From a virus, in the IMG/VR virus record IMGVR_UViG_3300036985_006824, positions 1-26,335 of that record: a stretch of DNA of 26,335 nt; one strand, written 5' to 3'. The position numbers were made by a program, and so were the translations under genes. Positions 1,738 through 21,811 of this stretch are shown in pieces (position 1 is the stretch's first letter; each line of letters opens with the position of its first letter). The notes beneath the pieces are model-generated. The model ran no database searches, was not told the DNA's origin, and saw nothing but the letters and a program-made list of their open reading frames with translations.

Positions 1738-4700
1738 TTAATCTCCACCAGACGCTGCGATATCTGCTAGCGTTGACTGATATGCCGGCGGTACGGGCGG
1801 TTGTCCTTCTTCGCCGGCGGTTCCAGCGCCGGTAGCGAAGTTCAATCGTTGACGTATGATAGAACTCTGGCGCATAATCATGATCTTTTCAACTTCATCA
1901 ACGTTCATTGTAACGCTTAGGTTAACATTCAGAACGATTTCCTTGCTCCTAATCGTATAGTTCGTCTTTGAACCTAGACCAACTGCCTGCGCTAACTTCG
2001 TTAGTTTTGTCGGCGTGTTGATGCTGATGCCATCAGACAATGCTTTGTCAAGTTCATTTGCTTTCTTGACCATGTCGCTTGCCGCAGAAAGCGCAGTGCC
2101 GATCGCATCTCTCTTAAGGACCTCAACGACCTTATTGATTTGCGTACCGTATTCTGAGATCCGAGCAACTGATTCTGACACGCTCTTCATAGCTTCAGGC
2201 GTTAATGAATCCTTGATCTTAGAGACTGTTGGGAGCGAAACCTCAACAGCACCGACCATTTGTGAGACTGCATCACCGACAGATGCGGGATCAACTGATG
2301 ATTTTTGAACGTTGCGCAATGCGGTTGTCAATGACGATAATGCACCGAACAGTTCTTTCATCTGGTCGGCTATTTTCATCACTTTACCACCACCCATTGA
2401 ATCTATCAGTTTACCGACTACATTGATGTTATTAAGAAGATCGCCTAATGGACTGCCACCAGGACCCATGCCGCCGACTAACCTTTCCATGAAAGTCGAA
2501 ATCGATATGATAGACTGAACCATCGGATCAATGTTGCCGACGTCACCGCCCTCTTTACCATGAGTCTTTGATATCGACTCAGCAAGTTTCGGAATCTCAC
2601 CAATGAAACTAAACAGAGTTTTTGCAATCTCAAGATTTTTCGTGAAATCCTTGCCAGTTGGCATCTGCTTCACGACTTCAACGAGTGAATACATCAACAT
2701 TGGTAATGTTGCAGTCATTTCGATAATCGTCTTTGACAGATCTGGTATCTGCGACGTAATGTCAACTATTGATCCAAAGCTAATTGAACCAACGCTGACT
2801 GGGGCACCCTTCGTTGCGTTGCCCATAGACGTCATCAAATCAATAGCAATCTTAAGAATGTCACCTAAAACTTTGACGCGAGCAATATCGCCATCATCAA
2901 GACTTTGAGCCTGTGTAGTAACAGACGTAATCACGCTTGACATTAGAACTGGGAGCAGTTCTTTGAATTGATCACCCATAATCGTGATCGTATCGCCAAG
3001 ACCTTCTGTGTCAAGCTCTGACGATTTGGTCTTTAAAAGACCCCAAGCGCGAGATGTCTCACCGGTCATTTGAAATTGTTTAAGCGCTTCGGGATCTGGC
3101 GTGATGAACTTTAGGATTTGTGCAGTTGAATTTATAAGGTCAGAAACCACTTTAGTAGCTTCAGGGTTGGGCACATGAACATCGCTTAATTTGCTGATCA
3201 ACCCTAATATGCCGGTTGAACCGGTGCCATCGCTTTTTCCCGTCAACATCTCAAGCGCGCCTTCTCTCATCTTTGTCGCGTACGTGTTAACGTCAACTGC
3301 TAGATTTGCAAAGTTATGCGTTGGGTCAGCGAGTTTGTTAATAAAGCTTCCACCTTCAGTATAAAACGCTTCTGGTGGTGCCGCGGCAGTCATGAATCCA
3401 GTGACACCATTCATAACGCTCGAAAATACTTCAGCAGCTTCTGCCATTCCTGGCCCACCTATGTTTAGCTGCTTTATAGAATCCATGACTGTTTCGATGA
3501 TGCCGATCAAACCAGTATTTCCGCCGCGTTGACCGACCATTTCTGCTAATAATTCGCGAGCAGAATTAGCTTTTTCTGCGAATGAACTTGTAGTCCCTGT
3601 AACGAACTCAATGAATGTTGGGTTCATCATGTTAATGAGATTGACAAGCGTGTCAGCAAAGGCTTGGATGGCCTTCATGATACCCAGGAAGGCATCAATC
3701 TTTCGTTGGAAAGTTGCATCAATCTTTAGTTTCGCAATTTCTTTAACGATGTCTGTAGTGATTACTGCCATCTCAGCGATCGCAACACCAATGACCGCCA
3801 AGCCTACTGCAGCCGCTGCAAGAGCTACTGCTTGTGGGCCAGAAGCTAGTACACCTATCGCCATCGAGGCAAAGATCAATGGGACCATTGCGAGGAAGAC
3901 TAATGACATCTTCAACATCAAATCACCAGCTGCAGACATATCGCTAGCTGTTCCGACCTGTTTCAGAAGATACGTTATCCCAGCAGCGACGACGCCAACA
4001 ATCCCAATTGCAACAGAGATAATCAAACCGCCTTTGATGACATCAGCAAGCGAGCTAGCCTTAGCCGCTAGTTTCATCGCAAACATCAATGGAATCGATC
4101 CAATGACCATTGCACCTAATATCGCTAATGGCGCAATGATATCGGTGATACTAGAGATGCCACCTGCGTCTAAGATTTTTTTCATTGCAACGATGGCAGT
4201 AACCATCATGACGCCACCGATTGCTATAGCACCTGCGATCGCAACTAACTTAAGTCCAAGCTTAACAGCGTCTTTAACACCCCAATCTTTAGCACCTGTT
4301 GGTTTAGTAGCTTCGCCAGCAGCCTTATTAAGAGCTCCGACTTTTTCTAAATCAGCGGGTCCTCCTTTAGAAGCCACCTTATTTGAGGCTTCCATGACTT
4401 GTTCGGCAGCCTTTTTGGCAACGCCTTCCATGATTTTTTTAGTGCCACCGTCAGTGAAAAGTTTGATAGCTGCTTGCCCTAAAGCTGCAGTACCAGCGCC
4501 TAATAAAGCTCGCGCAAAAGCTGGCCCGAATAACGCAGCAGCGATGTAAGGAAGCGCCGGGGTGACAAGATCAGTGAATTCTTTTGACGTCAGGTAATCA
4601 TAAAGTTTTTTGCCGAGAATCTTAACGAGTTCCCAAAGTTTCGGTGCAATGACTTGCCAAGCATGAACCAAAGCTTCGCCTAATGGCAATAAGATCTCGC

Positions 4701-6642
4701 CTAAAAATCCAAGAGCATCAGATCCAGCAGAAAGATCTCCTAACTTCTTTTTCCCGGTGACTAAGTCAGTAATATACTGAATGCCTTCGCCGACTTGTTC
4801 TGATGCCCACTTGATCGCGCCGGCTAAAACCGTTGTAATCGTTTTTGCAAATGTCTTAAAGCCAGCCAACATCTCTTTGCCGGCTCCGGTAGAGCCGTCA
4901 AAGAAATTAAAGAACTTCTTTTGGAGCTTTTCCATCAAGTCGCCAAACGAAGCTTTGCCATTTTTACCAGACAAATCTTGCATCCAACTCTTGAGAATAT
5001 CGACAGTACCACCGACCATCTGTTTGAATTTGTCCGGCCTAAAGAAATCAGCAATGCCACTTAGGAATTGCTTAACACCTGGAAACAATTCAACGAAAGC
5101 TTTTCCTAGTTTTACGCCTTCGATGTACACCAAGTTAAGACTTCTCTTGATGTTCATGATGATCGTTCTGAATTCTTTAGATGACTGAATACCACCTAAA
5201 AATCCTTTAACGAACATCTGCCAGAAACTACCAACTTGACCGCCGTCGCCGGGCTTAATCATTCGTTCGATCGAGTCTGCGAGCTTACCCATTGCCTCAG
5301 CTTGAGACATTGTTTTCTTTTCGGCTGTTTCGCTCTTCTTTTGAATATCGGTTAGAGACGCACCGTAATTGCTAGTTGCAAATGCTTGACGAACTGTAGC
5401 TTCATCTAGACTCGTTGTTTGCGCTAGCAATTTTGCTTGTTGACGAGTGAACTTACTAGCATCGATCCCGGCGTCGCTAAAGGACTTTCGCAACATTTCT
5501 AGTTGCTCAGCAGGATTTTGGGCTTCCATCAGTTTGAATGCATCGATGTTGACACCGAATGCCTGAGAAAGTTTAGCGGCATTTTCTGCAGCAGAGTCAA
5601 ACGTTTCGAAAGCGTCTAGCGTACCAGTGATCGCTGTAAGTTCAAGACCTAACTTTCTTGCGTAAACAGATGCCTGAGCAATTTCCTTAACTGTTATCGC
5701 ACCAAAGTGTTTAACACTTTGCAAAGCTTTGACCATGTCTTTACCGATCAATTTTTGATCGATATCAAACGCTTTTCCTAGCGCTAGCGTTTGCTTTGTC
5801 ATATCTAGGAAGACCTTGGCCATGGGCTTACCCATGCGAATCGCCGTGTCGCCTATCGCCTTCATTCCTTCATCAGAAACACCAAGGCCCTTTTGGAATG
5901 CTAGTAACGCGCCGCCATTATCTTTGAACTCTTGAGTCAATACACCAAACGTTGCACCCATCGCAACTGCGACCCTAGTCACTAATTCGATGCGTTCAGC
6001 TAACGTTCCAAAAACCTTGAATGCTGAAAGACCGGTATCTGAGAACCCTTTAAGGGCATTAGCAGCCCCTAAAACTGCGCTAGTGCCTGGGCCTTTTAGA
6101 TCACCCATCTGCTCGCGAAGCTTTTCGAGTGCAACAGCTAATTCATTCGTTCCACCTCCAGCTTGCGCGGCCATGTCAACAAGCGCGCTAAACATCTTGA
6201 ATGGAATCGCGATGATAGAAGCAGCAATGTTAACTGCACCATCAATGAATGATGCAAAGAAACCTGATAGACCTTTTCCTAAGGCGATAACGTTTCGTAT
6301 GCCTTGACCGAACCCGGTAACAGCAGCAGCGCCAATAATAGTAGCAGCGGGCAATTTTTTGGCCATTGCCGAACCCATGTCCTTAATGCGACCGGTTAGG
6401 CTTTTCACTTCTTTTTCGGTTGTCGTAAGCTCCTTTTGAACGTTATTGAATTTCGTTGAATTAAGTTGGCTTAAGTCTTGACCACGAAGTGCTTCAATGG
6501 CTTGCGTCAGTTTCTCAACTGTCGCTATTTGATTATCGTACGATGATTCGACTCGTTCCATAGAACGAGCCATGGCATCAGTCGCAGCGGCTAATTTCTG
6601 CGTAATTGACAGTTGTTCGCTGAGTTCTTCTTTAGACGCCAT
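1738..6642 (-). CDS. Tail tape measure protein
   Basis: At 1634 residues this is the longest gene in the window. It has the typical tape measure make-up: an N-terminal coiled coil (residues about 1-90, rich in Glu/Lys/Gln), hydrophobic Ala/Gly helices (about 95-160), a long amphipathic helical middle, a cluster of membrane-like helices at about 795-955 (for example AGAIAIGGVMMVTAIVAM), and a Met/Val-rich helical C-terminus. Tape measure proteins sit in the tube lumen, set tail length and take part in DNA passage. At about 0.15 nm per residue, 1634 residues would correspond to a tail near 240 nm, which is long for a myovirus. It follows the baseplate-hub/chaperone genes and is followed after 2 nt by the next gene. 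The start ATG at 6642 has only a weak upstream site (AAGATCTAA). No enzymatic domain such as a lysozyme was recognised. Confidence 0.85.
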   Translation of the reverse strand: MASKEELSEQLSITQKLAAATDAMARSMERVESSYDNQIATVEKLTQAIEALRGQDLSQLNSTKFNNVQKELTTTEKEVKSLTGRIKDMGSAMAKKLPAATIIGAAAVTGFGQGIRNVIALGKGLSGFFASFIDGAVNIAASIIAIPFKMFSALVDMAAQAGGGTNELAVALEKLREQMGDLKGPGTSAVLGAANALKGFSDTGLSAFKVFGTLAERIELVTRVAVAMGATFGVLTQEFKDNGGALLAFQKGLGVSDEGMKAIGDTAIRMGKPMAKVFLDMTKQTLALGKAFDIDQKLIGKDMVKALQSVKHFGAITVKEIAQASVYARKLGLELTAITGTLDAFETFDSAAENAAKLSQAFGVNIDAFKLMEAQNPAEQLEMLRKSFSDAGIDASKFTRQQAKLLAQTTSLDEATVRQAFATSNYGASLTDIQKKSETAEKKTMSQAEAMGKLADSIERMIKPGDGGQVGSFWQMFVKGFLGGIQSSKEFRTIIMNIKRSLNLVYIEGVKLGKAFVELFPGVKQFLSGIADFFRPDKFKQMVGGTVDILKSWMQDLSGKNGKASFGDLMEKLQKKFFNFFDGSTGAGKEMLAGFKTFAKTITTVLAGAIKWASEQVGEGIQYITDLVTGKKKLGDLSAGSDALGFLGEILLPLGEALVHAWQVIAPKLWELVKILGKKLYDYLTSKEFTDLVTPALPYIAAALFGPAFARALLGAGTAALGQAAIKLFTDGGTKKIMEGVAKKAAEQVMEASNKVASKGGPADLEKVGALNKAAGEATKPTGAKDWGVKDAVKLGLKLVAIAGAIAIGGVMMVTAIVAMKKILDAGGISSITDIIAPLAILGAMVIGSIPLMFAMKLAAKASSLADVIKGGLIISVAIGIVGVVAAGITYLLKQVGTASDMSAAGDLMLKMSLVFLAMVPLIFASMAIGVLASGPQAVALAAAAVGLAVIGVAIAEMAVITTDIVKEIAKLKIDATFQRKIDAFLGIMKAIQAFADTLVNLINMMNPTFIEFVTGTTSSFAEKANSARELLAEMVGQRGGNTGLIGIIETVMDSIKQLNIGGPGMAEAAEVFSSVMNGVTGFMTAAAPPEAFYTEGGSFINKLADPTHNFANLAVDVNTYATKMREGALEMLTGKSDGTGSTGILGLISKLSDVHVPNPEATKVVSDLINSTAQILKFITPDPEALKQFQMTGETSRAWGLLKTKSSELDTEGLGDTITIMGDQFKELLPVLMSSVITSVTTQAQSLDDGDIARVKVLGDILKIAIDLMTSMGNATKGAPVSVGSISFGSIVDITSQIPDLSKTIIEMTATLPMLMYSLVEVVKQMPTGKDFTKNLEIAKTLFSFIGEIPKLAESISKTHGKEGGDVGNIDPMVQSIISISTFMERLVGGMGPGGSPLGDLLNNINVVGKLIDSMGGGKVMKIADQMKELFGALSSLTTALRNVQKSSVDPASVGDAVSQMVGAVEVSLPTVSKIKDSLTPEAMKSVSESVARISEYGTQINKVVEVLKRDAIGTALSAASDMVKKANELDKALSDGISINTPTKLTKLAQAVGLGSKTNYTIRSKEIVLNVNLSVTMNVDEVEKIMIMRQSSIIRQRLNFATGAGTAGEEGQPPVPPAYQSTLADIAASGGD

Positions 6643-6671: not shown

Positions 6672-6959
6672 TCAAATCGGCCAGGGAATTCCCAGAATTC
6701 TGGAAAACTCTGAGGACGAGGCGTGTTTCAAATTCAGTTTGTTCATCACGCTATCAACAGTTGCGCCTGGTTTCTTGAGCTCATCTTGAAATCGGTGTGA
6801 TGCCAACATTGCATTCGTCACTGCTTGAATTTCTTGTGGGGTTCCACGAACCTTAAGATTCACTGCTTTTCCAACAAGCCAAGCAGCACATGCAGTAAAA
6901 AACAGTTTACCAATAAGGTTGAACTGAAGTTCGTTAAGTTGTTGTCTTGTGTCAGTCAT
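6672..6959 (-). CDS. Small protein before the tape measure gene (95 aa)
   Basis: The ATG at 6959 has AAGGGTGA just upstream, a reasonable ribosome binding site. One hydrophobic helix lies at about residues 14-32 (LIGKLFFTACAAWLVGKAVN), followed by a helical region and a C-terminus ending GIPWPI. The gene lies immediately upstream of the tape measure gene, where many tailed phages keep tape measure chaperones. A tail-assembly role is inferred from position only; the single hydrophobic helix would also allow a small membrane protein. No catalytic motif is visible. The 29-nt gap to the tape measure start supports co-expression. Confidence 0.75.
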   Translation of the reverse strand: MTDTRQQLNELQFNLIGKLFFTACAAWLVGKAVNLKVRGTPQEIQAVTNAMLASHRFQDELKKPGATVDSVMNKLNLKHASSSEFSRILGIPWPI

Positions 6960-7012: not shown

Positions 7013-7228
7013 TTACGTGAACCTACGCAAGCGACTTGGTGTTTGAGCCCGGGCTTTATTTTGCATCGAACGAACGTCCGGAGAATTTTGATGTAAGGCT
7101 CTAGACTGGTTTTCACCGTTGTCTGAACCTTTGTTCAATTCTTTAACGATACGTTCAACGAACCAGCGCTTATAAGCAACTGGTAATTGCATCGTTTCAG
7201 ACCATACAAACCCACCATAATAGATCAA
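7013..7228 (-). CDS. C-terminal extension of gp26-like protein, probably reached by +1 frameshift
   Basis: Read alone this is a 71-codon frame from TTG 7228, but no Shine-Dalgarno sequence precedes that codon. The same frame is open upstream to 7306, overlapping the end of the gp26-like gene by 47 nt, with no ATG, GTG or TTG before 7228. The translated overlap (FFGLQPEDKEQL, then ILEPAFLLIYYGGFVW) reads like genuine protein continuing into LPVAYKRWFVERIVKELNKG. A +1 slip at the end of the upstream gene would therefore fuse the two. Extended products of this kind are well known for tail assembly chaperones located just before tape measure genes. Alternatives are initiation at the weak TTG, or a gene split by mutation or sequencing error. 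The basic Arg/Lys-rich tail ends SRLRRFT. Confidence 0.6.
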   Translation of the reverse strand: MIYYGGFVWSETMQLPVAYKRWFVERIVKELNKGSDNGENQSRALHQNSPDVRSMQNKARAQTPSRLRRFT

Positions 7229-7259
7229 TAAAAAGGCGGGCTCTAATATGAGCTGTTCT

Positions 7260-8126
7260 TTATCTTCCGGCTGAAGGCCAAAGAAACGTGACGCCGATCG
7301 GCATACTCACCTCTTCAGCGTGACCGCAAGAAGGACACACAGTCTCCTGTTTCATTCGAATACCTGGCTCTTTGTCCTTGATGTAATTACGCAGTGCAAG
7401 TGAGTCTCGTGCAGGCATCATCCGGACGAAATTTGCGATCTTTGCGCGATCAGAGATTCCGTCGATTGAAACAATGCTATAAAGTAAATTCGTTGTTACT
7501 GCCGCGTCGGACTGAAGATTGAGCTTCTTTTGACGCTCTTGGGTTGCAAGGATCTCTTCCTCGTCACGACCGGTCATAAACTTGAAACGAACCGTCTTTT
7601 TGCAGAATGGAAGTAAGAACTCAAAGACGTTTGCTCCGGGTTCTGTTGGCTCAATTTCAAGACTCTGAATTGGTAGAGTTCCTAAGTTGAATTGTTGCGG
7701 TGCTTTTGTGTTACACTCGCCACACTCGATCTCGGCGTCATACTCTGCACCATAACCGGTGATTCGAATAGCAACCATGAGTGCGTTACGATCACCAGTC
7801 AATAGATCAATAGGATTCACTGACTTGTCAGTCAGACATGACTTGATTAACTCAGAGATAACTGTTCCCTTCTTCAAGAGTGCCCTTGATGTTAGGATAT
7901 CCTCTTCTCGAGCTGTCATCGCCTTAATCTCAACACGATCACGGCCATGAAGCGCGTGATCATTTGGATATACTTTTCCGCCAGACGGCAACGGCACGAT
8001 TTCGACTGGAATCTCTAAACCAAAGTCAGACTTGGCTTTATCGGCTGACGTAGTCGTCTGCATGCGTGGGTCTACACCGGGTGGTGGTGCAAAAACTTGG
8101 TTCTTCTGCTCTCGTTCTTCAGACAT
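7260..8126 (-). CDS. T4 gp26-like baseplate hub protein with zinc-binding cysteines
   Basis: The 288-residue protein matches the character of the T4 baseplate hub family (gp26-type). After a disordered N-terminus (about 1-37) come a beta segment ending LPSGGKVYP, the conserved region MTAREEDILTSRALLKKGTV (about 70-89), a CxxC pair at Cys135/Cys138 (ECGECN), a long middle with MTGRDEEEIL, and a second CxxC at Cys264/Cys267 (CPSCGH) that probably completes a zinc ribbon. In T4, gp26 belongs to the central hub assembly pathway of the baseplate. The ATG at 8126 is preceded by GAGGAG at ideal spacing. The gene lies upstream of the tape measure gene. The last codons overlap a +1 frame that probably encodes a translational extension, making this resemble a chaperone pair. 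Confidence 0.8.
   Translation of the reverse strand: MSEEREQKNQVFAPPPGVDPRMQTTTSADKAKSDFGLEIPVEIVPLPSGGKVYPNDHALHGRDRVEIKAMTAREEDILTSRALLKKGTVISELIKSCLTDKSVNPIDLLTGDRNALMVAIRITGYGAEYDAEIECGECNTKAPQQFNLGTLPIQSLEIEPTEPGANVFEFLLPFCKKTVRFKFMTGRDEEEILATQERQKKLNLQSDAAVTTNLLYSIVSIDGISDRAKIANFVRMMPARDSLALRNYIKDKEPGIRMKQETVCPSCGHAEEVSMPIGVTFLWPSAGR
7281..7289 (-). promoter_or_regulatory. Candidate +1 translational frameshift site
   Basis: The minus strand reads ACG TTT CTT TGG in the gp26-like frame. Skipping the C after TTT gives V-T-F-F-G-L-Q-P in the +1 frame, which stays open to 7013, whereas the zero frame stops at 7260. A small hairpin (GCTC-ATATTA-GAGC, about 7238-7251) lies roughly 30 nt downstream. 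The exact slip codon cannot be fixed from sequence alone. Confidence 0.4.
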
Positions 8127-13254: not shown

Positions 13255-14505
13255 ATGGTTGATATCAACGATGAAAAGGTCAAACAAGGCCTTGCAAAAT
13301 TAAGCGCCAGTGTAAAGGCCGCATGCAATGAGCCTGCACTTAGAAAATACCTTGACGATAAAAAACGCCTACCGAAAGAGCGTTTGTTTGAGATGATTTC
13401 TAAATCAAAAGTTTGGTCAGTCGCAAATCTAGACGATTACAAACGCCTGACAACAAAAAATATTGAGGCAACGTGTTCTCATGGACACAGTGAGATCGTG
13501 TCTATTCAAAGTGTGATTGATGATAAACCTTGTCAGACATGTTCTCCGGGAAAACGCAAACGATCGTTCAAACCGTTTAAACAGTTCGTTAACGAACTAT
13601 TGGCAATTCGACGTGAAGACGAATTCATGTTTGATGAATCGACGTATAACAGCGTATCACGACCAATGTCGATTAAATGTGTCAAATGCAAGTTTGAATT
13701 TGAGAAGATGCCAAAACAATTAATCTATGAAAAAATTGGATGTCCCCGATGCGCGAACAAAGCAAAGGTGACTACGCAAAGAAAGTCATGGCATAGCTTT
13801 TTGAAACTAGCGAAAGAGCGACACGGCGATTCATTTGAATATTTCAAAAACGAAGATGATCGTTATGGAAACGCTGATTCGATCAAAAGACGTTGCAAGG
13901 GATGCGATGCAATTATAAAGCAATCGATACCTGATCATCTTTTTGGAAACGGATGCAAAACGTGTTCGAATAAGAGGAAACAAACTACTGAATCATTCAT
14001 CACGCTTTCTAAAGAAATCTGGGGAAAGAACGTTTATGATTACTCGCAAGTCGTATTCGTTAACAACAAAATGCCAGTAAAATTCACATGTAAAAACGGA
14101 CATGCATTTACAACCCAACCCTTGAACCACTTAGACATTGGCGGATGTCCAACATGCAATCACAAGAAGTTCAAGTGTATTGGCGAAACTGAGTGGTTAG
14201 ACTCACTAAAGATCCCTGAGAATTGTCGGAATGTTTGGATCAACGTTAATGGTCAAAAGCTAAATGTAAGCGGGCTTATCAATCAAACAATCTACGAATA
14301 TCATGGTGATTACTGGCGTGGTAATCTGGCACGATTCGCACCGAATCTCATCAACAATTTCAATGAGATGACAATGCAAGAACTTAACGATTACACGTTA
14401 GAAAAAGAAAAAGCATTACGAGATGCAGGATTCGTTGTGATTACCATGTGGGAGTCTAAGTGGATAGAACTACGAAAGACCCGACCTAAGGCTTTGTTGA
14501 CATAG
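13255..14505 (+). CDS. Zinc-ribbon repeat protein with C-terminal Vsr-like nuclease domain; probable free-standing homing endonuclease
   Basis: Encoded on the opposite strand to the structural genes. After a helical N-terminus (1-60), the 416-residue protein has successive treble-clef/zinc-ribbon units marked by paired cysteines: CSHGH..CQTC, CVKCKFEFE..CPRC, CKGCDAII..CKTC and CKNGHAFT..CPTC (about residues 70-305). The C-terminal domain contains EYHGDYWRGN (348-357) and, after YTLEKEKALRDAGF, MWESKW (398-403). This is the pattern of Vsr-related nucleases, including EDxHD-type homing endonucleases of phages. Such genes spread by cutting homing-site DNA in related genomes and commonly interrupt phage gene clusters. 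Its own promoter, its insertion between sheath and tube genes and its strand all fit a selfish insertion. It could alternatively act in exclusion of competing phages. Catalysis is not proven from sequence. Confidence 0.75.
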   Translation: MVDINDEKVKQGLAKLSASVKAACNEPALRKYLDDKKRLPKERLFEMISKSKVWSVANLDDYKRLTTKNIEATCSHGHSEIVSIQSVIDDKPCQTCSPGKRKRSFKPFKQFVNELLAIRREDEFMFDESTYNSVSRPMSIKCVKCKFEFEKMPKQLIYEKIGCPRCANKAKVTTQRKSWHSFLKLAKERHGDSFEYFKNEDDRYGNADSIKRRCKGCDAIIKQSIPDHLFGNGCKTCSNKRKQTTESFITLSKEIWGKNVYDYSQVVFVNNKMPVKFTCKNGHAFTTQPLNHLDIGGCPTCNHKKFKCIGETEWLDSLKIPENCRNVWINVNGQKLNVSGLINQTIYEYHGDYWRGNLARFAPNLINNFNEMTMQELNDYTLEKEKALRDAGFVVITMWESKWIELRKTRPKALLT

Positions 14506-15516: not shown

Positions 15517-18500
15517 TTACGGTGTACCGCTATTGCTTACAACGAAGTCAAGAGAAACAAACTCGATACTTCGTGTAGGTTGGATGAAGATTTTACCCCT
15601 AATCGTATTGTTATCAACGTCAGCTTGCGTCGTCGTTGAAGAATCAATGATGACCTTGAATTTCGTAACACCTGCTAGAGCCTGCACTCTTTGCAACCTA
15701 GGCGTAACTGCTGCAGAGAACCTGGAAAGAGTTGCCTCACGGTTCGGCTCGAAGATAATGGTTTGCGCGATGTCCCTGACCTGTCGCCTAATATCGATAA
15801 GCAAACGCCTAACGTTAACGCGATCAAGTGCTGAAGCCGCTGCTTGGATTGTCTTCTGACCCCAAACCACAACGCCACCTTTAGGATTTGTTCCGGATGT
15901 TGCAGTCCCAGGGAATGCAACAAGTGGATTGATGCTAACGTCATAAAGAGCATCCATGTTTGTCTTTGACAACTGGACCCTAGCTTCAAGTGTTGTTTGC
16001 AACGCACCGCGTGTCATTCCAGCCGGAGCGAACCAAGGATGGCCAACTGCATCGTTTAACGCCAAGGCACCAAGAACAACAACGGAAGGTGGAACGATAA
16101 CGTTCGTTTTCGTGTTTGGATCTGGCAATGCAACGTCTGGGAAGTATGCAGCAGCAAAGCTTGTATCTAATGCCCTATCACGGAAGTTGTTAACTGTTAA
16201 CGTGACCGAAGGAAGTTGGCTATCAGTTACAACGTTCTCGTCGTTGTTGTCTCTCTGTTCAATGTCCATTAAGAACAACGCATCAAAGCGTTCTTCAACT
16301 GCGTTGATCGCAGAATTGGTCACGATTGGGTGCCTGATACCAGGAATTGCCAATAGTTGAACATCTACGTTGACAACGTTCTTCATGATATCAAGCGCTT
16401 TGGTGTATGCCTTAACAGACGGACCATCTTGACGACCACGATTTGCGTCATTCATGTCTGCAACGACAGCATTATCATTAATCTCAGATTCATCCTTATC
16501 AAAGAGGTTGACACCGTCAAATCCGCCCTGCATAAAGAACGTGTACTTGAGGAATCGCCTATTGGCTTGGATGAAGTCGGACGCTGCGATGCGGCGGGTC
16601 TTTGCAGAATCATCCACGTTGATGTTTCCGTCGCGTACGTATGTTGCAGTATCCCATTTTGTTGAATCAGCTAGTCCAGTTGAACCAGTCATGATCTTGA
16701 GATTTTCAAGCGTGAATACATTCCTACAGAATTTATCAGAATCTAACTCACCGTTCTCTGCGGTTGCCGGCGTCCCAGCGTTATCACCAACAACGAAGTT
16801 CTGTTGAGTTTCTGAAAAATCTGGGTAGTATTTTGCAAAGCTAAGCAATGACTTATCCTGCAAAACGCTAGCATTTGGTGTCGTCAAACTTGTCACGTGT
16901 TCAAATCGCGTTCCCCAATAGAGCAACGGATTTACAGAAAGCTTAACGCCAGAACCTTGAGTAATGTTCTTTCGCAAAGGCAATGGCGCTTCGATAACTC
17001 TCTTTAGAACGTTAGAAGCACCAACAGATGACGTGATCTGTGATAATGACGATGAAACAACTGGGCTAGACAATGGCATTGTGCCAGACGTGATTAGATG
17101 TTGAATACCGCGAACGCCGAATGGCAATGCAGTAGCATCGACAGTTTCATTATCAACATCACCTGAAACCTCAACTCGAACTAAATTCGATCGATTTGGG
17201 TAGTTTCCATCGATGATTAACTTTTGTCCAGCCTCTGACTGATCAAAATTAAAGAATACGTGAGCATCGCCGATGACCTTTGCAATGTAACGATCTGAAT
17301 TTGGGTCAAGGTTCAAACCTCTCCACTGTTCAAGCGCGCGGATTGAGCTATCTTGATCATTCCAATCACGAATGATCAAGTCAAAGCTACCATAACGATT
17401 CGCTGGATCAGTTGAAGGTGAGATGTTTTCAATCGATAATTTGTAATTTGTGACAACATTAGCGCCGGCGTCAAGTGCATGCAATCTAAACAAATTCGTT
17501 GCAACACCACCGAAGCGCTGTGATATGACCCATGGTGAAAAACCATGTGCGTACCTATCAGTCCAAGCTTCGTAATTTGGAATAACTGAATTTCCAACGT
17601 TGCGAGCTAATGCTCCACTCGTTAAGAACGCAGCTGATTCAGCTCCTACGCGAGGTGCAGTTGAAGCGCCAGAACCTGATAGAATCGAAACTAATCCAGA
17701 ACCTGTCACTGTTGCTGTTGACGGGTGAATATCCCAATGTGAGTACAGGTAATGACCTGCCTGTTGGACTTTCAAAGGATCCTTATTCAAAACGTTCGCA
17801 AAATAATTTGGAGACGTCATGTCAAACGAAGCAGTAATCACGTTTGGATAAAGTGGATCAGTTCCTTGATGACCATTAAGCAAAAGAACGAAGTCTTGCT
17901 TGGCGACTAAACCATCCATTAACACGACTGCCCCAATTGCCTGTCCTTGTGAACTCTGTTCAGTTGCCAAAAGGTTACTAACTGGTGCCGACGACGAAGT
18001 AACCGATGAAGACAGGCGGAGAATGACACCCGAAGGGGCCATCATAATTCCGCGAATGATTGGAACAGCAGTATTAACACCAGGCGTGATACTTCCCTGA
18101 CCTTGTAATCCAGCCTCGGAAAACACTGTCGAGCCGGCTGACTCTGACATGAAGGCCCCGAGGAAGAACGTTCGTCCTGCAACGCTATTACTTCCTGATA
18201 CAGCGTATGGATTTCCAAACAAAGTACCATCGCCAGATCGAGGTTGGTTTTCGCCAACTGTAAATCCAGCACTCGTTACAGATCCATCCTCTGCACGGCG
18301 CTTACCATCACCAACTCCAAGTACACGAAGGTACGTTACTGCGCCGGCGTTTCGAAGCCACTCAGTGACTGCTAAAGGCCCAAACTTCTTTCCGTCAGTA
18401 AGACCAAACTTAGCGTAAAAGTCGCTAAGTAAACCAACAGTCACTGGGACGAATGCCGGCCCTTGTTTTGCGGTGCCAATAACACCTGCTGGGATCCCAA

Positions 18501-18579
18501 CGGGTTCCTGTGCGACCGGACCAGAAAGGTCAATTTCCTTTGCTGAAACCCCTGCGCTTCCGAATTTTAGCTGTGCCAA
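15517..18579 (-). CDS. Tail sheath protein, T4 gp18-like, paralogue 2 (TTG start)
   Basis: The 1020-residue protein has the hallmarks of contractile tail sheaths. N-terminal VSAKEIDLSGP and IPAGVIGTAKQGPAFVPVTV are followed by a large insertion region and GGFDGVNLFDKDE (about 685). The conserved C-terminal domain contains HPWFAPAGMTRGALQT, NPLVAFPG, VVWGQKTIQAAASALDRVNV and RRLLIDIRRQV, and ends in beta strands used for subunit interlocking (RSIEFVSLDFVVSNSGTP). The start is TTG 18579, set by AGGAGAA 6 nt upstream. It is a diverged copy of the gene just upstream (21717) and far longer than T4 gp18 (659 residues), so it probably carries extra surface domains. It is bounded by terminators on both sides, consistent with independent high expression. 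Confidence 0.9.
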   Translation of the reverse strand: MAQLKFGSAGVSAKEIDLSGPVAQEPVGIPAGVIGTAKQGPAFVPVTVGLLSDFYAKFGLTDGKKFGPLAVTEWLRNAGAVTYLRVLGVGDGKRRAEDGSVTSAGFTVGENQPRSGDGTLFGNPYAVSGSNSVAGRTFFLGAFMSESAGSTVFSEAGLQGQGSITPGVNTAVPIIRGIMMAPSGVILRLSSSVTSSSAPVSNLLATEQSSQGQAIGAVVLMDGLVAKQDFVLLLNGHQGTDPLYPNVITASFDMTSPNYFANVLNKDPLKVQQAGHYLYSHWDIHPSTATVTGSGLVSILSGSGASTAPRVGAESAAFLTSGALARNVGNSVIPNYEAWTDRYAHGFSPWVISQRFGGVATNLFRLHALDAGANVVTNYKLSIENISPSTDPANRYGSFDLIIRDWNDQDSSIRALEQWRGLNLDPNSDRYIAKVIGDAHVFFNFDQSEAGQKLIIDGNYPNRSNLVRVEVSGDVDNETVDATALPFGVRGIQHLITSGTMPLSSPVVSSSLSQITSSVGASNVLKRVIEAPLPLRKNITQGSGVKLSVNPLLYWGTRFEHVTSLTTPNASVLQDKSLLSFAKYYPDFSETQQNFVVGDNAGTPATAENGELDSDKFCRNVFTLENLKIMTGSTGLADSTKWDTATYVRDGNINVDDSAKTRRIAASDFIQANRRFLKYTFFMQGGFDGVNLFDKDESEINDNAVVADMNDANRGRQDGPSVKAYTKALDIMKNVVNVDVQLLAIPGIRHPIVTNSAINAVEERFDALFLMDIEQRDNNDENVVTDSQLPSVTLTVNNFRDRALDTSFAAAYFPDVALPDPNTKTNVIVPPSVVVLGALALNDAVGHPWFAPAGMTRGALQTTLEARVQLSKTNMDALYDVSINPLVAFPGTATSGTNPKGGVVVWGQKTIQAAASALDRVNVRRLLIDIRRQVRDIAQTIIFEPNREATLSRFSAAVTPRLQRVQALAGVTKFKVIIDSSTTTQADVDNNTIRGKIFIQPTRSIEFVSLDFVVSNSGTP

Positions 18580-18708: not shown

Positions 18709-21700
18709 TCAGACGAATTCTACGCCTGATGCTGTGATTATGAAATCAAGCGCAATGAATTCGATTGTCTTTGTTGGAACAATGACGATACGACCGTTAA
18801 GCTTGTTCAAATCAATATCTTCTTGTGTATTGTTCGTTTCGTTACATACAACCTCAAACCGCTCAATACCTGACTGGGCTTGAATCAAACCCAATTGTTG
18901 CACACTATCGGAAACGAACTTATTGCGAACGGCAAGTGTATTGTTTTCAAAGACCATTAGGTTTGCGATTCCAATGATGATCCTTTTAACCTCTAACAAT
19001 AGCCTTCTAACGTTAACACGATCCAATGATGATTTTGCGATTTGAAGCGTCTTCTGCCCATAGATCACATAACCTAATTTAGGAAATGTTGCGATTGGGT
19101 TAATTCTTGAATCATAAAGACGGTCGCGATCAGTTACGTTTAGACGAACTTCAACGTTTGTCACGAAATCAAGTGCAGCTCTATTGAATCCTGCCGGAGC
19201 AAACCAAGGATATGATACTCGGTCGTTATAGGCTAATGCACCCATTGCTGCGACTGAACTTGGAACCTTAAGTCGACGCTTGTTTGAAAGATCATCAATG
19301 AATACGTTTGGAAAGTAACAACCAGTGAAGTTGTTATCAACCGCCCGAGCGTCCAAAGCTGATGCAGATTTATCAACGTCTGGTCGAGTGACCGAATCAT
19401 CATACAACCGCGTTGCTTCATCATCGTAAGAAGCAATGTCCATGACATAAAATGCTAGACCATAATCACGAACATTTTTCATTGTATAGTCAGTAATGAA
19501 CGATTCCCTAATGCCTGGGATGTTCAAAATGTTAATGTTAACAACCATTGGATCTGTCATGATGTCGACCGCGGTCAAATATGACAAAACTGTTGAGTTA
19601 CTCTGACCAGTACCATTTGGATTTACCAACATTCCCGGAGCAACATAACTCAATTCAGCGCCACCGCCGGCATCGAACGACGTTGATCGATCATTCAACC
19701 TTCTGGCATTGTTGTCAAGAAAGTTAACGCCGTCATAACCACCGAACATCATGTTCGTGAATTTCGTGAAAGACGAAAACTTATTGAAGTTTGCAGCAGT
19801 ATCCTGTGCCAACATTGTAGCTAGTGTGATTCGCTTTCCGATCGAAGTGTTGACTGTGTAGTCTGACAAATCTAACGTTGCATTTCTGATGTATGCAGCT
19901 TCACGCATATGATCATTGATCGTACCGGTGAGGTGCGTGATGCTTGTGTTCGAAAATGCAACCTTTGCCAAAGTGAACTTATTGTTATTGAAAGTATCAG
20001 CGCCAGAACCGGTAACAAGAACATCAAGTTTCTTGATACCCATGAACTTTGTATACGATTCTAAGAGCTTGTTCTTTTCTGAGGAAAGATTTGCGTTAAG
20101 TGGAGTTGTATTTCTCTCAAACTTCACACCCCAGTGAAGCTGAGTGTTCGCTAATTCAGTCGGACCTGGTGCTCCATCAAACGCTGGTGCTGCCGGAATT
20201 TCGCCTTTGGTCACCTTGAATCTAAATGGAACTGGCGGGAGAATCGAACCTGACACTGCAGACCCAGAGCTAATGCCTAAAACACCAACAAGACGTGGTG
20301 TAGTTGAACCAGTGTCAGTGAAAGAATTGTTCGTCTTAAGAACTTCAATACCTCGGAAACCGAATGGCAGAGATTTTGCCGGGACCAAAGCACGTTCAAC
20401 AGCATCAGACATAGTCACGCGAACTAGCTTTGAATTGTTCGCATATTTTCCAGTTGCAATAACTCGTCGTTCAGTCGTCAACGATGAATCAAAGTTGTAA
20501 TAAACTTTTCGATCGCCGATTAACTTTGCAACGTAATTTCCTGCTAATGGATTCAAAGAACAATTTGGAAACGATTCTAAGACTAATGGATTTTGATCAG
20601 TATCATTCCAATCCCTGATATGAACAGTGAATGTTCCATGTGGTTTTGAATCGTCTAATGACGCTTTAATGTTTGTGATAGAGATCTTGTAAAGTTTGTT
20701 TGCAAACTCACCATCATCTAAAGCTTCGAGTGAGAACAAGTCATATTCCGTCGCACCGAATGGTTGCGAGATGAACATCGTAGTCTTTGGGGTTTGATAA
20801 CGTGTATCAAACGCACCAAAAGCCTGACGCATGATCAACGTTGAATCACCTGAAGTGTTGCTAGTAGCCGTTGAACCTGAAAGAATTGCAACAACAGTAG
20901 GTGTTGCAATCTCATCGTCTACTGCAAAGTCACCATAAAGAACATGTTGTTCCTGTACGAAACGATCCGGATCAGTGTTCAACACCTTAGCGAAATAGTC
21001 AGCATCTGTTGGATTTAGAGACGCCGTGAAAACACGAACACCAGGATTTCCATCAGTGTTAACGAATCCATTACCTAATGTTGAAGAGATAACAAGTTTA
21101 AACTTTCCATTCACCAACGTTGCAAGGTCATCTGGACCGGTCGCTGTAAAAGCTCCAACTGCTGATTCATTTCCATCAAGAACCATCATTCGCGAACCTG
21201 ATGCCATGAACACCATGCCACGAACGAGGTTAGCAAACCCGCCTGAGAAGCTATTGTTGTCTGTAAACATCGGATTACCAGATGCTTCAGCAGTTTGCAA
21301 CATGTGTCGAGCTGTGATGAATTGAACGGCGCCGTTATGACGACCACGATTATCGTGGCTAGCAACTGTTCCATCTAATCTAAATCCGGCGTTCTTTACG
21401 CGGCCGGTTTGAACTGTCGTTGCAATTTCTGCATCTGTGCTATTTGCACCCGCGCCAAGAACGCGAATGAATGTTAGTGCGGCTTTGTGTTTAAGAAATT
21501 CATTGACAGCGTATGGACCAAATCGTTTTGGATCTAGATCACCAAACGTTGCCTTAAATTCATCAAAATTAGCAATCGTGACTGGCACGAAAGCTGGACC
21601 TTTATTCGCTGTGCTGATAACGCCAGCGGGCGTTCCAACAGGACCCCTAGTCTGAGGTGCAGATAAATCGATCTCTCGTTCAAAAAAATTCGGTGACCTA

Positions 21701-21717
21701 AATGTCTGTTCCGGCAT
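18709..21717 (-). CDS. Tail sheath protein, T4 gp18-like, paralogue 1
   Basis: I use ATG 21717 (MPEQTFRSPNFFEREIDLSA), which follows TTAGGAG by 7 nt; an upstream TTG in the same frame lacks such a site. The 1002-residue product shares order and motifs with paralogue 2: TPAGVISTANKGPAFVPVTI near the N-terminus, GGYDGVNFLDNNARRLND in the middle, and YPWFAPAGFNRAALDF, NPIATFPK, VIYGQKTLQIAKSSLDRVNV, RRLLLEVKRII and KTIEFIALDFIITASGVEFV at the C-terminus. Sheath subunits surround the tube and contract on infection. The middle thirds of the two proteins differ strongly. It is the first gene after the neck genes, as gene 18 comes after the neck and terminase genes in T4. Confidence 0.9.
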   Translation of the reverse strand: MPEQTFRSPNFFEREIDLSAPQTRGPVGTPAGVISTANKGPAFVPVTIANFDEFKATFGDLDPKRFGPYAVNEFLKHKAALTFIRVLGAGANSTDAEIATTVQTGRVKNAGFRLDGTVASHDNRGRHNGAVQFITARHMLQTAEASGNPMFTDNNSFSGGFANLVRGMVFMASGSRMMVLDGNESAVGAFTATGPDDLATLVNGKFKLVISSTLGNGFVNTDGNPGVRVFTASLNPTDADYFAKVLNTDPDRFVQEQHVLYGDFAVDDEIATPTVVAILSGSTATSNTSGDSTLIMRQAFGAFDTRYQTPKTTMFISQPFGATEYDLFSLEALDDGEFANKLYKISITNIKASLDDSKPHGTFTVHIRDWNDTDQNPLVLESFPNCSLNPLAGNYVAKLIGDRKVYYNFDSSLTTERRVIATGKYANNSKLVRVTMSDAVERALVPAKSLPFGFRGIEVLKTNNSFTDTGSTTPRLVGVLGISSGSAVSGSILPPVPFRFKVTKGEIPAAPAFDGAPGPTELANTQLHWGVKFERNTTPLNANLSSEKNKLLESYTKFMGIKKLDVLVTGSGADTFNNNKFTLAKVAFSNTSITHLTGTINDHMREAAYIRNATLDLSDYTVNTSIGKRITLATMLAQDTAANFNKFSSFTKFTNMMFGGYDGVNFLDNNARRLNDRSTSFDAGGGAELSYVAPGMLVNPNGTGQSNSTVLSYLTAVDIMTDPMVVNINILNIPGIRESFITDYTMKNVRDYGLAFYVMDIASYDDEATRLYDDSVTRPDVDKSASALDARAVDNNFTGCYFPNVFIDDLSNKRRLKVPSSVAAMGALAYNDRVSYPWFAPAGFNRAALDFVTNVEVRLNVTDRDRLYDSRINPIATFPKLGYVIYGQKTLQIAKSSLDRVNVRRLLLEVKRIIIGIANLMVFENNTLAVRNKFVSDSVQQLGLIQAQSGIERFEVVCNETNNTQEDIDLNKLNGRIVIVPTKTIEFIALDFIITASGVEFV

Positions 21718-21811
21718 TACCGTGCTCCTAAGCGCATATTGCGTTAGCAATAACTATCCGGCGCGTAGATGAAAACTCGAGCGATCAGCGGCAAGTAAGT
21801 ATCGTGTTAGA

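Follow-up and report, generated by a model that had tools for sequence, protein, structure and literature searches.

Frameshifting in the genes for tail assembly chaperones has been described as conserved in long-tailed phages, with T4 as an exception (PMC5009743). According to PMC10885494, which cites Vladimirov et al. 2022 (a study also cited in PMC12846349), T4-like phages carry separate short and fused chaperone genes, and PMC12846349 mentions polyT signals for −1 shifts in chaperone genes of the T4-like type. For the chaperone of the haloarchaeal myovirus HSTV-2, the shift is reported as very likely +1 (PMC5009743). One predictor failed to find any of the 481 forward shifts in its test set (PMC10885494). 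No earlier report of the +1 site described here was found in the literature searched, outside which most subscription papers lay.

The window is the whole 26,335-nucleotide stretch of DNA that was analysed (positions 1 to 26,335 of IMG/VR record IMGVR_UViG_3300036985_006824), and the site lies on its minus strand (Table 1). A gp26-like ORF ends there with GTC ACG TTT CTT TGG CCT TCA GCC GGA AGA TAA, giving the protein C-terminus ...VTFLWPSAGR*. Recomputed coordinates bear out the first-pass annotation, which had placed the opening of a +1 frame at 7306 inside this gene: a TGA (7309-7307) stands directly before the opening, and the frame runs on to the TAA at 7015-7013. The annotation had also noted the lack of a usable start before a poorly placed TTG, and the earliest TTG in this frame indeed falls 26 codons in, at 7228, with no ATG until 7192. 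The slip that it had proposed at ACG TTT C (7289-7283), giving V-T-F-F-G, yields a joined reading with a predicted product of 370 aa.

Table 1. Features of the chaperone locus and its surroundings in the window.
Feature	Position	Strand	Remark
Predicted short form of the chaperone, 0-frame ORF	7260..8126	-	288 aa, gp26-like, PF12322
Putative shift site TTT CTT TGG CCT	7275..7286	-	near-invariant across 171 loci
Inferred slip	TTT 7286-7284 to TTC 7285-7283	-	within shift site
0-frame stop TAA	7260..7262	-	
Extension, +1 frame, FFGLQPEDK...RLRRFT	7013..7285	-	90 aa including FF; stop TAA 7015-7013
Purine-rich SD-like stretch GAAGAGGTGAG	7306..7316	-	then 0-frame ATG 7304; synonymous codon bias in relatives
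Tape-measure candidate	1738..6642	-	1634 aa; position and size; no family match
ORF between extension and tape-measure candidate	6672..6959	-	95 aa

Very probably, a programmed +1 frameshift at this site makes the long form of a T4-type tail assembly chaperone whose short form is abundant. Comparison among loci reveals that the two frames overlap and are both conserved, that a slip motif is shared and that many loci lack a usable start; the slippage itself, the slipping codon, its efficiency and the role as a chaperone are what we infer.

The same overlap occurs in eight IMG/VR homologues that are 50-79 % identical to the window, with TTTCTTTGGCCT at the site in seven and TTTTTTTGGCCT in one. 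Because these homologues keep the overlap at such distances, the layout is not a product of chance or of sequencing error. From wider scans and phage records together, 180 loci were assembled that have a gp26-like ORF; in 175 of them, a match to the extension lies next to the 0-frame stop. The nine closest loci served to build the extension HMM; aligning all relatives gave too divergent an alignment for scanning. Of the five loci without a match, two are truncated contigs and the others (L015, L018 and L019) are −1 forms, and three further loci are matched yet not in the +1 frame: L020 and L101, both −1, and L013, where the match is weak. The +1 arrangement is therefore present in 172 of the 180 loci. 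A scan of genome assemblies added 15 intact loci, every one of them also +1 (two are identical here and come from one contig), bringing the loci with this layout to 187. Identical copies of the locus (L194 and L195) lie far apart on one 306-kb contig, possibly as a terminal repeat or an assembly duplication.

Purifying selection is acting on the extension, judging from pN/pS values of 0.14-0.44 for relatives against the window. This, with the 172 of 180 loci that carry the extension, agrees with the first-pass view of the +1 frame as a natural-looking continuation, and the comparative data support its broader proposal, modeled on lambda chaperone pairs, that a T4 gp26-type gene just ahead of a tape-measure-type gene undergoes a programmed +1 shift. 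It had singled out such a case in a gp26-type protein; the shift appears real, but it is not special to the window genome, being conserved over a large phage group.

The pattern TTT YTT TGG CCT is near-invariant at the site. Among 171 aligned loci, the 0-frame sequence is TTTTTTTGG in 123, TTTCTTTGG in 33, TTCTTTTGG in six and something else in nine, with CCT as the next codon in 164. Much of this conservation can be attributed to double coding. At the first Phe codon, however, the third base can vary in the 0 frame without changing the amino acid and stands ahead of the part read after the shift, and it is still T in 164 of the 171 loci, where 120 TTT codons would be expected from the same genes. 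In constraint, the two slip codons take ranks 1 and 2 among 31 twofold codon columns, although the +1 frame adds a constraint of its own on the second. The locus counts overstate independence, because the loci share ancestry; the tree shows about seven and about six changes of the two slip codons.

Wherever the second codon is CTT, the first is TTT (36 of 36), and TTC never precedes it. The site of L011 (TTT CTA TTC) permits only UUU_C, and the six TTCTTTTGG sites permit only UUU_U. Thus, every +1 site offers at least one UUU_Y, a pattern consistent with a slip by re-pairing of tRNA-Phe. Peptidyl-tRNA-Phe on UUU (7286-7284) would re-pair with UUC within UUU YUU UGG CCU in a minority of ribosomes, and in some homologues the slip may fall on the second UUU instead. 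Stimulatory RNA structure was sought around the site: the mean folding z is about −0.8 in every segment tested, and none appears in the broad alignment. In a consensus fold of the close clade, the upstream purines are paired with the slip site itself.

A credible, though less likely, alternative is that the +1 shift takes place as proposed but with the second codon slipping, such that peptidyl-tRNA-Leu moves from CUU to UUU before a slow UGG and the product reads V-T-F-L-G. This is how RF2 shifts, at CUU_U or, in a few species, at UUU_U (PMC5009743), and YTT TGG fits 162 of the 171 loci. However, if CUU_U were enough, TTC CTT TGG would be expected among the 36 loci with CTT and is found in none, an absence that an E-site effect of UUU could explain; at L011 such a slip is impossible. 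We give considerably less credence to a change made in the mRNA, by which RNA polymerase would drop one U in a run of T and so join the two frames. The run of seven T in the 123 TTTTTTTGG loci is what such slippage would use, but TTTCTTTGG, whose longest T run is three, stands in the window as well as in 32 further loci, and six loci have TTCTTTTGG. In addition, transcriptional slippage would favor longer runs, and a T before the slip codons is avoided (5 of 171 loci, with 85 expected). Because TTTCTTT sites exist and a preceding T is avoided, this explanation, which we regard as extremely unlikely, does not fit. That a one-base indel or an assembly error disrupted the frame in the window genome has next to no probability: in one genome taken alone such a disruption would look no different, but the same layout in 187 loci and the purifying selection on the extension refute it.

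Two separate genes, with translation of the extension beginning at a start codon of its own, through internal initiation or translational coupling at the SD-like sequence, would also account for the overlap. An AGGAG or GGAGG lies 22-32 nucleotides upstream in 112 of the 171 loci, with strong synonymous bias; an ATG, GTG or TTG stands in the +1 frame before the site in 106; besides the ATG-bearing loci, about 38 % of all loci have some candidate start, mostly GTG or TTG; and in the window, the SD-like stretch is followed by an ATG at 7304. No start position is shared, however, and before the site the +1 frame has no ATG in 135 loci, none of the three codons in 65, and a stop directly before the TTT in 11. 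Conservation of FFGL extends ahead of any later ATG, this model would leave the Phe-codon constraint unexplained, and initiation at 7304, a 0-frame ATG, would still call for the shift. The homologues were also searched for a distinct second gene that has a start of its own, which the first-pass annotation had named as what would speak against a shift, and no such general pattern was found in this group. On the strength of these comparisons we consider an own start very unlikely for this locus, and unlikely as a general mechanism. Upstream of the site, the synonymous bias is seen at several positions: GAG at −30 occurs 55 times against 17 expected and GGG at −9 occurs 51 times against 7 expected, and C-ending codons are favored at −3. 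At −32 to −22, AGGAG or GGAGG is too far from the site for an SD effect of the RF2 type, and the element might instead cause ribosomes to pause or support internal initiation in the 0 frame, for example at the ATG at 7304.

The base before the slip codon differs between +1 loci and related −1 forms. In the 171 +1 loci it is C in 114, G in 43, A in nine and T in five, where 85 T would be expected; since all five T cases are TTT CTT, a preceding T is absent from all 128 TTTTTT sites. In contrast, sister lineages appear from their sequences to shift −1 at T_TTT_TTY in the same gene, and T precedes the slip codons in all 11 of the −1 forms listed (a list that leaves out L013 and VAP7, with its GTTTTT site). 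The −1 forms include the Kyanoviridae P-HM1, S-RIM8 and Melnitz-1, along with VH1_2019, ZPAH1, PhiW-14, PA5oct, RaK2, Atu_ph07 and XacN1. As in the +1 group, their extension frame is open from the FF codons of gp26. L101 stands among +1 relatives, yet it has AAT TTC TTC TGG, and only its −1 frame is open into the extension, which may reflect a sequencing error. Two frame changes suffice on the tree, which was built without the Kyanoviridae and the other forms in the L205-L210 comparison. In those phages (Kyanoviridae, KVP40-like and other T4-like; L205, L206, L207, L208, L209 and L210), a short downstream gene is open in the −1 frame back to T_TTT_TTY in gp26, and in some it is annotated as gp51.

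The chances seem to us about even that one orthologous chaperone family uses opposite programmed shifts in sister lineages (+1 at UUU_Y and −1 at T_TTT_TTY), with the base just ahead of the Phe codons as the main determinant of direction. The same proposal would make L101 a natural switch and would have T4 replace the shift by gene duplication.

The short form matches PF12322 (T4_baseplate) with an E value of 8e-18 and 65.3 bits, against a Pfam cut-off of 24.5; T4 gp26 and gp51 score 215.6 and 177.5 bits with the same family. The two window ORFs were predicted apart in structure prediction. Among 710 aligned chains of solved structures, the one closest to the short-form model (pLDDT 89) is the HK97 tail assembly chaperone 2ob9 (Z 6.2, rmsd 6.0, 86 residues), although a Z of 6.2 is middling and may reflect a common arrangement only. 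The first-pass label of a gp26-like hub protein stands in its first half, given the PF12322 match; for its second half, a role as tail assembly chaperone is most likely the better reading than one as a structural protein of the hub.

The extension is modeled as a small three-helix domain. Its score against DUF6760 (PF20546) is 14.9 bits in the window, below the curated cut-off of 27, and 11 of 29 relatives match DUF6760 at E ≤ 0.5 (best, 1.6e-5). Profile comparison of the extension with the gp51 tail gave a match that is 29 % probable. A search of the sequences of solved structures with both parts gave no meaningful match, and Foldseek returned none at E ≤ 0.001 for the short form against the PDB or for the extension against viral models; VIA-align of the extension compared four chains. 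By tblastn, no matches were obtained to the extension in phage records or to the long form in plasmids.

Fusions of the two parts in a single frame, which had been suggested as a check, are absent from the 180 loci, and in none of the annotated relatives looked at are the parts joined. T4 gp51 does have that layout, being a gp26-type domain plus a C-terminal tail of about 48 residues; gp26 ends where this tail starts. The 309-kb contig L008 from a relative, possibly incomplete, showed no second gp26-like gene at E ≤ 1. Enterobacter phage EC-F2 (L202, 1501-2794) carries, downstream of a gp51-like gene and on its strand, a second and shorter gp26-like gene, an order unlike the divergent one of T4.

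The gene lies just upstream of the tape-measure candidate, with one small ORF between, and the next large gene after the extension is annotated as tape measure in Flavobacterium phage immuto, in LIS04 and in Bacillus phage SP-15. Elsewhere in the window, two long tail-sheath genes (15517-18579 and 18709-21750, minus strand; 1020 and 1013 aa, both phrog_23 tail sheath) are adjacent. A motif like MKLRQSQLRSIIKEEL recurs in several otherwise unlike ORFs (starts 10120, 15402, 12401, 9824 and 8504, minus strand). On the strand opposite to the tail genes, 13255-14505 (plus) holds an HNH endonuclease-like gene (phrog_559), probably a homing endonuclease.

We conclude that the two products would form a G/GT-type chaperone pair, with the long form predicted to arise by the +1 shift. 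Most ribosomes would stop at 7262-7260 and release the short form, whereas slipped ribosomes would append the three-helix domain. By analogy with lambda gpG and gpGT, holding the tape measure protein would fall to many short copies, and recruiting tube subunits to a few long ones. If so, a large phage group with a T4-type gene uses a chaperone shift, even though T4 is cited as the exception (PMC5009743), and does so in the rarer +1 direction. Because more than 180 natural +1 sites exist together with −1 sites in the same gene of sister groups, the determinants of frameshift direction are directly testable.

As with lambda gpG and gpGT, a short protein is accompanied by a presumably rarer, C-terminally extended form whose extension lies in another frame, just upstream of the tape measure gene. 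However, the shift here would be +1 at UUU_YUU_UGG rather than −1, and the short form is of the T4 gp26 type (PF12322). T4 gp26 and gp51 belong to this same family, but T4 has two paralogous genes in place of one gene with a frameshift. The −1 forms of gp26 differ in the T before their T_TTT_TTY site, which the +1 group avoids. The site resembles that of RF2 (prfB) in its proposed +1 slip at YUU_U with a next codon beginning UG. It departs from RF2 in having TGG in the A site rather than a stop, an SD-like sequence at −32 to −22 rather than about 3 nucleotides upstream of the slip codon, and a predicted second product as the outcome in place of autoregulation. The HSTV-2 chaperone, likened by its published description, would very likely share the +1 direction, although its carrier is an archaeal virus.
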